DNA of 37,012 bases from Candidatus Nomurabacteria bacterium (GTDB lineage: Bacteria; Patescibacteriota; Minisyncoccia; Phycocordibacterales; UBA9973), in the NCBI GenBank assembly GCA_023267375.1, contig JAHFNJ010000008.1, positions 1-37,012 of the forward strand, in the 5' to 3' direction. The first letter of the stretch is position 1, and every line of letters begins with the position of its first letter. The notes below the pieces were generated by a model. The model made no database searches and had not been told where the DNA came from. It saw only the letters and a program-made list of their open reading frames with translations. Of this stretch, positions 16,158-28,475 are shown one piece after another. Made by a program: the position numbers and the translations under genes.

Positions 16158-16200
16158 GCCGGAGTGCCCGCCGTAGGCGGGTAAAGCGGAAGAGGTAGAT
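16158..16200 (+). pseudogene. Hairpin-interrupted, truncated tRNA-Leu 5' half (module A)
   Basis: gccggagtg + [cccgcc-gta-ggcgggtaaa] + gcggaagaggtaga; removing the insert leaves a tRNA-Leu acceptor/D-arm like the intact gene at 16468 (gccgggatggcggaattggtaga). Confidence 0.65.
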
Positions 16201-16227
16201 TTAGTCGCCTCAGGCGACCGCACATTT

Positions 16228-16464
16228 ATGATCTTTGTATATGTACTCAAAAGTTGCAACCACAACTTTAGATACATCGGAATAACGAATAATATTGCGC
16301 GCAGAATTGAGGAACACAATGCGGGGAAAAATGCTTCCACCTCGTTTTATAAACCGTTTCTTTTAGTCTATAATGAAGAAGCACCAGACTATAAAAGTGC
16401 GAGGAAACGTGAAATATTTTTGAAGAGCGGCAAAGGAAGAGCGTTTTTAGATACAATTAAATAA
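16228..16464 (+). CDS. GIY-YIG nuclease domain protein
   Basis: MIFVYVLKSCNHNFRYIGITNNIARRIEEHNAG...KREIFLKSGKGRAFL; the stop lies 3 nt before tRNA-Leu(CAA). Confidence 0.9.
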   Translation: MIFVYVLKSCNHNFRYIGITNNIARRIEEHNAGKNASTSFYKPFLLVYNEEAPDYKSARKREIFLKSGKGRAFLDTIK

Positions 16465-16467
16465 TAT

Positions 16468-16549
16468 GCCGGGATGGCGGAATTGGTAGACGCACACGAC
16501 TCAAAATCGTGCGGAGCAATCCATGGGAGTTCGATTCTCCCTCCCGGCA
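16468..16549 (+). tRNA. tRNA-Leu(CAA)
   Basis: Acceptor gccggga/tcccggc, anticodon arm cacga-ctCAAaa-tcgtg, T-arm gttcgattctcc. Confidence 0.94.
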
Positions 16550-16550
16550 C

Positions 16551-16721
16551 AATAAAATAAGCGAAGCGTTTTTGTGCCGGAGGAGCACGCAAATTTCTTT
16601 GCGTGTGTGGAGAGTCGAAGGGCGCAGTGATGTTTTGACAGCAGGCAAAACCACGAACCGGGGTCGCAAAAATTGCGAGTGACGACGAGCAATTATTTGT
16701 GACCGAGTCTCCCCTCCCGAC
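16551..16721 (+). repeat. tRNA-mirror element downstream of tRNA-Leu(CAA)
   Basis: Inverted acceptor/trailer ttgtgccgg (16572-16580), hairpin cacgcaaa-tttc-tttgcgtg (16586-16605), inverted T-arm ggagagtcgaa (16609-16619), core with ccggggtcgc...gagtgacgac, degenerate direct tRNA 3' end gagtctcccctcccgac (16705-16721). Confidence 0.7.
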
Positions 16722-27928: not shown

Positions 27929-27972
27929 GCCGGGGTGGCGAAACCTGCCTGCCGGCAGGCAGGTTGGTAGAC
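27929..27972 (+). pseudogene. Hairpin-interrupted, truncated tRNA-Leu 5' half (module B)
   Basis: gccggggtggcgaaa + [cctgcctgccggcaggcagg] + ttggtagac; without the 20-nt perfect palindrome it is identical over 24 nt to the start of tRNA-Leu(TAG) at 28216. Confidence 0.88.
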
Positions 27973-27976
27973 AACT

Positions 27977-28210
27977 ATGCATTACGTATATGTGATAAAA
28001 AGCCAGATAAGAAACTATATCTATGTCGGTCTCACTGACAACGTAACCCGTAGAATTAGTCAACATAACGAGAAACACAATAAAACAACAAAACCCTATG
28101 CACCATTTGATGTTTTACTAGTAGAAGAGTATCATTCAAGACCAGAGGCTAGAATAAGGGAGAAGTATTTAAAATCTGGCATTGGTAAAGAATTTTTAAA
28201 ATCCTTATAA
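27977..28210 (+). CDS. GIY-YIG nuclease domain protein
   Basis: MHYVYVIKSQIRNYIYVGLTDNVTRRISQHN...EARIREKYLKSGIGKEFLKSL; fills the gap between tRNA fragment (ends 27972) and intact tRNA (starts 28216). Confidence 0.92.
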   Translation: MHYVYVIKSQIRNYIYVGLTDNVTRRISQHNEKHNKTTKPYAPFDVLLVEEYHSRPEARIREKYLKSGIGKEFLKSL

Positions 28211-28215
28211 AAACT

Positions 28216-28297
28216 GCCGGGGTGGCGAAATTGGTAGACGCACTTGCCTTAGGAGCAAGCGGAGTGATCCATGGAGGTTCAAGTCCTCTCCCCGGCA
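28216..28297 (+). tRNA. tRNA-Leu(TAG)
   Basis: Acceptor gccgggg/ccccggc, anticodon arm cttgc-ctTAGga-gcaag, T-arm gaggttcaagtcctc. Confidence 0.94.
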
Positions 28298-28348
28298 CAA
28301 ATACAAAAAAGAGCGGTATTTACCGCTCTTTTTTGTATTTGTGCCGGG
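28291..28348 (+). terminator. 28-bp perfect inverted repeat beginning inside the tRNA-Leu(TAG) acceptor, includes terminator-like stem and T tract
   Basis: cccggcacaaatacaaaaaagagcggta-tt-taccgctcttttttgtatttgtgccggg. Confidence 0.85.
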
Positions 28349-28475
28349 AGTGAAGCACCTGCGTGCTTCGCGTGAGAGGACTTGAAAACCTTGAGCATGT
28401 GCTCGCAGTCCACATTAGTGGACGAGAACACGCGAAAGGTGTACAGAATCTGTAAGATTCAAGATTCCTCTCCTG
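28341..28475 (+). repeat. tRNA-mirror element downstream of tRNA-Leu(TAG)
   Basis: gtgccggg, hairpin gaagcac-ctgc-gtgcttc (28352-28369), inverted T-arm agaggacttgaa (28375-28386, exact complement of ttcaagtcctct), hairpins incl. gtccac-atta-gtggac, degenerate direct end tcaagattcctctcctg (28459-28475). Confidence 0.75.

Follow-up and report, generated by a model that had tools for sequence, protein, structure and literature searches.

A GIY-YIG nuclease gene that has probably invaded a tRNA-Leu gene in a Candidatus Nomurabacteria genome

Why should a fragment of a tRNA-Leu gene, split by a perfect palindrome, stand before a small open reading frame (ORF) that ends just short of an intact copy of the same gene? 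The question is raised by a locus of a Candidatus Nomurabacteria bacterium (assembly GCA_023267375.1, contig JAHFNJ010000008.1) that lies within the 37,012-nt stretch of DNA analysed here, referred to below as the window. The ORF encodes a GIY-YIG protein, and we call the arrangement module B; a second one, module A, lies elsewhere in the window. Judging from sequence comparisons, module B is probably a mobile element of the intronless homing type that encodes a GIY-YIG endonuclease and invaded the tRNA-Leu(UAG) gene. The evidence also points to a widespread and apparently undescribed pattern, in which selfish elements settle on tRNA genes across several phyla.

Architecture of module B

All parts of module B read on the forward strand, except for the palindrome, which has none. 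The residual 5' piece of the tRNA begins with nucleotides 1–15 (GCCGGGGTGGCGAAA, 27929–27943), is interrupted in the D-loop between nucleotides 15 and 16 by the perfect 20-nt palindrome CCTGCCTGCCGGCAGGCAGG (27944–27963), and resumes with nucleotides 16–24 (TTGGTAGAC, 27964–27972). With the flanking AA and TT of the tRNA included, the palindrome extends to a perfect 24 nt (27942–27965). The GIY-YIG ORF (27977–28210) encodes a single-domain protein of 77 aa and is followed by the intact tRNA-Leu(TAG) (28216–28298), which is recognized by ARAGORN, by Rfam and in a search of the genome against itself. All 24 nt of the residual piece are identical to the intact gene, and piece and gene lie 287 nt apart. 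By analogy with the parB locus described below, we infer that the piece marks the ancestral position of the tRNA.

An earlier note, made from the letters of this DNA alone, had described the same succession of split 5' half, palindrome, ORF and intact tRNA. Sequence, ARAGORN and PF01541 agree with it, and its values for the 24-nt identity and the 287-nt spacing were the same when recomputed; its start for the intact tRNA holds, with the end moved from 28297 to 28298.

The intact gene is the sole tRNA-Leu(UAG) in an 848-kb genome that is 94% complete, the second-best match in that genome being 76% identical. Around module B no RNA family except tRNA attains the gathering score of Rfam and no intron is found, so the ORF is freestanding, lying within neither an intron nor an intein. 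A group I intron-encoded endonuclease was rejected on the lack of an Rfam intron match and on a score for NCBIfam TIGR01453 far under its cut-off.

The module B protein belongs to the GIY-YIG superfamily. It matches PF01541 at E=5e-17, and the catalytic-type residues Y5, Y16, R26, H30 and E62 are invariant across 37 relatives. Its AlphaFold2 (AF2) model has a predicted local distance difference test (pLDDT) score of 96.8, and Foldseek matches it to 1zg2, 7cq3 and 6sei, with likeness to UPF0213, Slx1 and the catalytic domain of I-TevI. Among module proteins the ratio of nonsynonymous to synonymous substitution rates (dN/dS) is about 0.04–0.5, values that indicate purifying selection on the ORFs.

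Relatives in two mirror layouts

Scanning GTDB genomes with the alignment of Leu-type proteins yielded 241 relatives; 80 of them were retained for analysis. The genome records are mostly metagenome assemblies, and counts of tRNA labels rest on automatic calls. Leu-type relatives occur in Patescibacteria, Bacteroidota, Ignavibacteriota, Balneolota and Nitrospirota and mostly adjoin a tRNA-Leu gene, whereas other subfamilies are found at tRNA-Glu, Gln, Thr, Ile, Ser, Asp, Asn, Arg and Ala.

Automatic classification places the tRNA directly downstream of 39 ORFs, directly upstream of 28 and beside none of the remaining 20, most of which prove on reading to have tRNA-Leu pieces or to lie in tandem arrays or at contig ends. 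The two main classes are mirror images. In one, a 5' piece precedes the ORF and the intact tRNA follows it; in the other, the intact tRNA and its terminator come first and a 3' piece lies beyond the ORF. The intact tRNA shares a stretch of at least 10 nt with the sequence across the ORF from it in 34 of 39 loci of the 5' type (controls, 1/175) and in 21 of 28 of the 3' type (controls, 5/120). Removal of the insert joins the flanks into tRNA sequence with a score of at least 16 in 65 of 106 tRNA-adjacent homologues, compared with 2 of 259 control regions.

Eight loci (L132, L140, L143, L146, L150, L158, L160 and L187) hold two or three modules in tandem, and most of these modules have a tRNA piece of their own and a palindrome. 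Elsewhere ORF and tRNA run into each other: at L018, L020 and L023 (Glu) the ORF enters the tRNA gene and takes its C-terminus and stop from it (ending in ALSSNG), and at L044, L079, L083, L086 and others the two overlap by 10 nt, the tRNA again supplying C-terminus and stop.

The protein tree is short and poorly resolved. Along it tRNA labels change 29 times, compared with 58 in shuffles, and protein clades thus follow isotype. In a 32-row tRNA-Leu clade 29 rows carry that label, and the other three, when read, turn out to have pieces or interrupted copies of tRNA-Leu; a separate clade, also of 32 rows, has no tRNA association. Phylum labels change 19 times on the tree against a minimum of 4. 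The protein of locus L014 is 73–74% identical to those of L125 and L131 from Bacteroidota, and because such cross-phylum pairs can be closer than pairs from the same family, horizontal movement of the modules is suggested.

A phage vehicle was considered and rejected, as there was no match among 50,697 phage records and the exact palindrome-in-D-loop string was absent from the viral contigs searched. Six relatives do lie on viral contigs. On one of them, an IMG/VR contig (L102, positions 240–380), a Leu-type GIY-YIG ORF precedes a tRNA-Leu copy whose D- and T-arms contain palindromes.

Empty sites and the position of the residual piece

In the family to which this genome belongs, parB and tRNA-Leu(CAA) form a recurring divergent pair. 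Module A occupies this site in the window, and B-type modules occupy it in the genomes of two other species (G025 and G104). Among 21 such loci read, three are thus occupied, 13 are clean empty sites (41–124 nt) and five hold ORF-less scars consisting of hairpins or tRNA fragments. In the occupied loci a sequence resembling a tRNA promoter lies directly before the piece, and the intact tRNA is shifted by about 300 nt. Since the spacing from promoter to piece equals that from promoter to tRNA in empty genomes (G025 compared with G119, and G104 with G133 and G121), the piece is the original start of the gene at this locus and the intact gene the displaced one.

Empty sites also exist at tRNA-Leu(TAG). 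Of the 30 family loci that match best, 28 lack the ORF; in at least 11 of these, no more than 45 nt separate the gene from the preceding tRNA, and the ORF-less loci include genomes with the same Cys-Leu-Lys-Leu tRNA cluster. In one genome, G107, the cluster that holds module B here is occupied by a related module. Comparison with empty sites had been named beforehand as a test in the earlier note, and ORF-less alleles were found at both loci. Its second refuting condition, a fixed neighbouring ORF with no upstream tRNA fragment elsewhere, is the opposite of what is seen, as pieces flank the ORFs of relatives.

Further traces are found around other tRNA-Leu genes. At L189, L199, L203, L209, L216 and L257, scars made of 5' fragments or hairpins lie just 5' of an intact tRNA-Leu and have no ORF. 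At L166 and L170 the tRNA-Leu is split outright, with its 5' half before the ORF, its 3' half after it and no intact copy adjoining. Piece and intact tRNA are identical in module B and L013, whereas they differ in module A and in L124, L126, L134, L168 and L175, where the intact tRNA looks as if it were a foreign one brought in with the ORF. Such differences and the split genes are what insertion and the replacement of tRNAs should produce.

Insertion into a tRNA gene is well supported by these comparisons, because empty sites exist and, at the parB locus, the piece holds the ancestral position behind the tRNA promoter. The proposal of a minimal mobile-nuclease module that duplicates the 5' part of its tRNA-Leu target, made in the earlier note, is thereby strengthened, as it is by the tRNA fragments that flank relatives.

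Two other accounts of the protein can be judged against the same observations. It could be a host DNA-repair enzyme encoded by chance near tRNAs, the pieces being remnants of ordinary tRNA duplication; a fold like that of UPF0213 and Slx1 and the purifying selection would suit such a role. However, the patchy distribution with its empty sites, the pieces lying across the ORF from the intact gene in two mirror-image arrangements, the clades that follow isotype, the intact tRNAs that look foreign and the split tRNA genes make it very improbable. Alternatively, the protein could be a defence factor or toxin whose substrate is either tRNA or branched or cruciform DNA, with the neighbouring tRNA as immunity or dosage gene. 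The Slx1-like fold and the isotype association are in keeping with this idea, yet it leaves the residual pieces and their position at the old tRNA promoter unexplained, and we regard it as improbable.

The palindrome

No match to CCTGCCTGCCGGCAGGCAGG is expected by chance (100 shuffles), and the whole 848-kb genome holds two exact copies. The same insert occupies the identical place in the D-loop in L013 and L014 and a similar one in many others. A blind search of 380 Patescibacteria genomes for the palindrome-in-D-loop arrangement returned two matches, both of them GIY-YIG/tRNA-Leu modules. More generally, the excised inserts are hairpins in nearly all rejoining loci, usually CCTGCCTGCCGGCAGGCAGG or a near variant of it, and they lie in the D-loop (after nucleotides 14–17 or 22–24), the anticodon loop or the T-loop; in the Glu, Gln, Arg, Asp and Thr subfamilies the insert is mostly another, longer hairpin. 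At L015 a near-complete extra tRNA-Leu copy, with palindromes in its D-loop and anticodon region, stands directly 3' of the intact tRNA, after position 1834.

Given the 5' layout, in which the hairpin lies between promoter and ORF, the palindrome and tRNA piece might be a leader that regulates the nuclease. There is precedent in the T4 genes segB, mobE and I-Tev, which have regulatory hairpins upstream (PMC2988022). In the 3' layout, however, the hairpin comes after the ORF, inside the 3' piece of the tRNA. A purely 5' regulatory hairpin is incompatible with that layout and was rejected, and regulation of this kind seems a poor prospect overall.

A stronger contender concerns the origin of the palindrome only and is compatible with a homing nuclease. 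The palindrome could itself be a mobile repeat that enters tRNA-like sequence independently of the nuclease, with a preference for unpaired loops; as hits in functional tRNAs would be lethal, copies would accumulate in dead pieces. Palindromes do occur away from tRNAs in most of 20 sampled contexts, and hairpin-bearing tRNA pieces exist without a GIY-YIG ORF. Moreover, 59 of 65 inserts lie in cloverleaf loops or junctions, compared with 67% expected, which suggests a preference for unpaired loops, although the rows are related and the excess is suggestive only. Against this, the 20-mer is rare, being found in 20 of 147 family genomes, and yet present in all five family genomes that have Leu-type modules. 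Palindrome-positive genomes are also enriched for GIY-YIG genes (18/20 compared with 74/127 other genomes, p=0.006, with relatedness ignored). On balance we think an independent mobile repeat somewhat less probable than its negation, but a serious candidate.

The 20-mer is dispersed, at 0–7 exact copies per family genome, and is about 60-fold denser in module zones (77 copies in 68 kb) than elsewhere in the same loci (7 in 368 kb). Its rarity and this concentration led us to reject a random abundant repeat of the candidate phyla radiation (CPR). That it is kept only to break long direct repeats is at best part of the answer, as 12 of 47 modules keep uninterrupted repeats of at least 25 nt, and up to 41.

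The earlier note had proposed that the palindrome disrupts the D-arm of the residual copy and possibly protects it from recutting. The interruption of the D-loop stands. Protection is doubtful, since the neighbouring intact tRNA has the D-arm of empty genomes, many 3' pieces carry their palindromes in the anticodon or T-loop, and hairpin-bearing pieces occur without an ORF. Nonetheless, a role against re-cleavage would fit the presence of palindromes in most residual pieces and of several inserts in long ones (L148 and L174), whereas a lowering of recombination between the tRNA copies is only partly supported.

Proposed mechanism

Homing by cleavage of a tRNA gene best explains these observations. 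The nuclease would cut a conserved tRNA gene in a cell that lacks the element, and repair from the element would copy the ORF along with as much tRNA sequence as one functional gene requires, at times an entire foreign tRNA, and thereby let the essential tRNA survive. The resulting arrangement is supported by the sequence: the ORF lies within the former gene, the 5' part of which is left at the old promoter as a dead remnant, and a complete tRNA follows downstream. The ORF may then be transcribed from the tRNA promoter. The palindrome would mark and inactivate the residual piece. We prefer a weaker reading, in which it is a low-copy dispersed palindromic repeat that is retained because an uninterrupted second tRNA piece would be a liability, exposed to re-cleavage or to recombination with the other tRNA copy that would remove the ORF. 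Bolder still is a two-part selfish system shared across phyla, in which isotype-specific GIY-YIG nucleases home into tRNA genes with a replacement tRNA, a natural form of cleave-and-rescue, and palindromic DNA is installed in the loops of residual copies, either to mark them as immune or as a side effect of cleavage; this we consider rather unlikely.

Several observations weigh against the homing interpretation. The fold is closest to UPF0213 and to Slx1, a structure-specific nuclease, and not to I-TevI, and the protein is a bare catalytic domain with no recognizable DNA-binding domain. In the family, 59 of 96 GIY-YIG matches are not beside tRNAs, and no occupied and empty pair from the same species (at strain level) was found among the genomes compared. 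Finally, the intact tRNA of occupied loci shares its D-arm with empty loci, so that simple recognition of the D-arm would be self-destructive and self-avoidance is not accounted for. Resistance through an altered tRNA was rejected as a general rule, the module B tRNA being up to 95% identical to empty-site tRNAs, with the same D-arm.

With these reservations, the data indicate that tiny homing-type nucleases matched to tRNA isotype invade the tRNA genes of many bacteria, uncultured Patescibacteria included. Such modules would explain why these genomes contain orphan GIY-YIG ORFs and broken pieces of tRNA, could explain horizontal replacement of tRNA genes, and are a source of compact candidate nucleases that would target highly conserved tRNA sequence. 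The palindrome shared across phyla is a puzzle.

Module A and neighbouring features

Module A, likewise on the forward strand, has a tRNA-Leu 5' piece (16158–16223) with two hairpins (16167–16181 and 16200–16217) that differ from the module B 20-mer. The piece received no score from automatic split-alignment and was identified by reading the sequence directly. It is followed by a GIY-YIG ORF of 78 aa (16228–16464) and the intact tRNA-Leu(CAA) (16468–16550), divergent from parB. The ORFs of the two modules are 45% identical. Because module A groups in the tree with tRNA-Ile-associated proteins, apart from module B, the association with tRNA-Leu may have two separate origins. A third small GIY-YIG gene of the genome (C2:64899) lies away from any tRNA.

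Downstream of module B, a 28-bp inverted repeat runs from the tRNA 3' end through the terminator hairpin (28291–28348, forward strand), and an inverted copy of the tRNA 3' end, broken by a hairpin, lies on the reverse strand (28341–28386). This copy, another in the window (16569–16612) and others 3' of CPR tRNAs at L018, L021, L183, L204, L208, L215 and L005 run on from the terminator inverted repeat without a break and are hairpin-interrupted where read. A link between them and GIY-YIG genes was dropped, as they occur with or without such a gene nearby.

Comparison with known systems

The literature searched contains no account of GIY-YIG modules in tRNA genes with palindrome-interrupted pieces; most subscription journals and preprints lay outside that search, and novelty is not proven. 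With UPF0213 and Slx1 the proteins share a single compact GIY-YIG fold, whereas those families have no known association with tRNA genes and Slx1 chains are much longer.

Short palindromic repeats resemble the 20-mer in being dispersed through genomes, some of them near tRNA genes. Rickettsia palindromic elements, for instance, are short palindromes dispersed in the genome; they have many copies, and the 20-mer is likewise dispersed but rare. Double-hairpin elements in Allomyces and GC-rich palindromes flanking mitochondrial tRNA genes in Neurospora are cited in PMC7218506. Here, in contrast, one 20-mer is common to several phyla and concentrated in the tRNA pieces of nuclease modules.

Phage T4 encodes SegB, a homing endonuclease of the freestanding GIY-YIG kind, within a tRNA cluster (PMC2988022, PMC13096335). 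Like the modules, SegB and its Seg relatives are freestanding GIY-YIG proteins with genes among tRNA genes and a target in the tRNA region. They differ in being phage-borne and in lying between tRNA genes, not inside one with a residual piece, and no palindrome-marked pieces are described for them; the modules, in turn, reside in cellular chromosomes at many isotypes.

In the same bacterial group, GIY-YIG ORFs are also inserted in genes for structural RNA, namely CPR rRNA genes, according to a survey that judged the proteins not to spread by homing and whose text does not mention tRNA (PMC11270868). A GIY-YIG gene is among those predicted to have been donated by Patescibacteria (PMC12455944).

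The nearest mechanistic analogue is found in the mobile ORFs (mORFs) of fungal mitochondria. These enter essential genes, whose function is restored by a duplicated and often foreign gene end, as in atp6 of Allomyces and atp6, atp9, cox2 and nad3 of Glomus (PMC3630166). In both cases an endonuclease ORF lies in an essential gene, between a native end left over and a duplicated terminal part that reconstitutes the gene. The mORFs, however, are mostly of the LAGLIDADG type and reside in mitochondrial protein-coding genes, whereas the modules occupy bacterial tRNA genes, occur in both 5' and 3' layouts and carry palindrome inserts.
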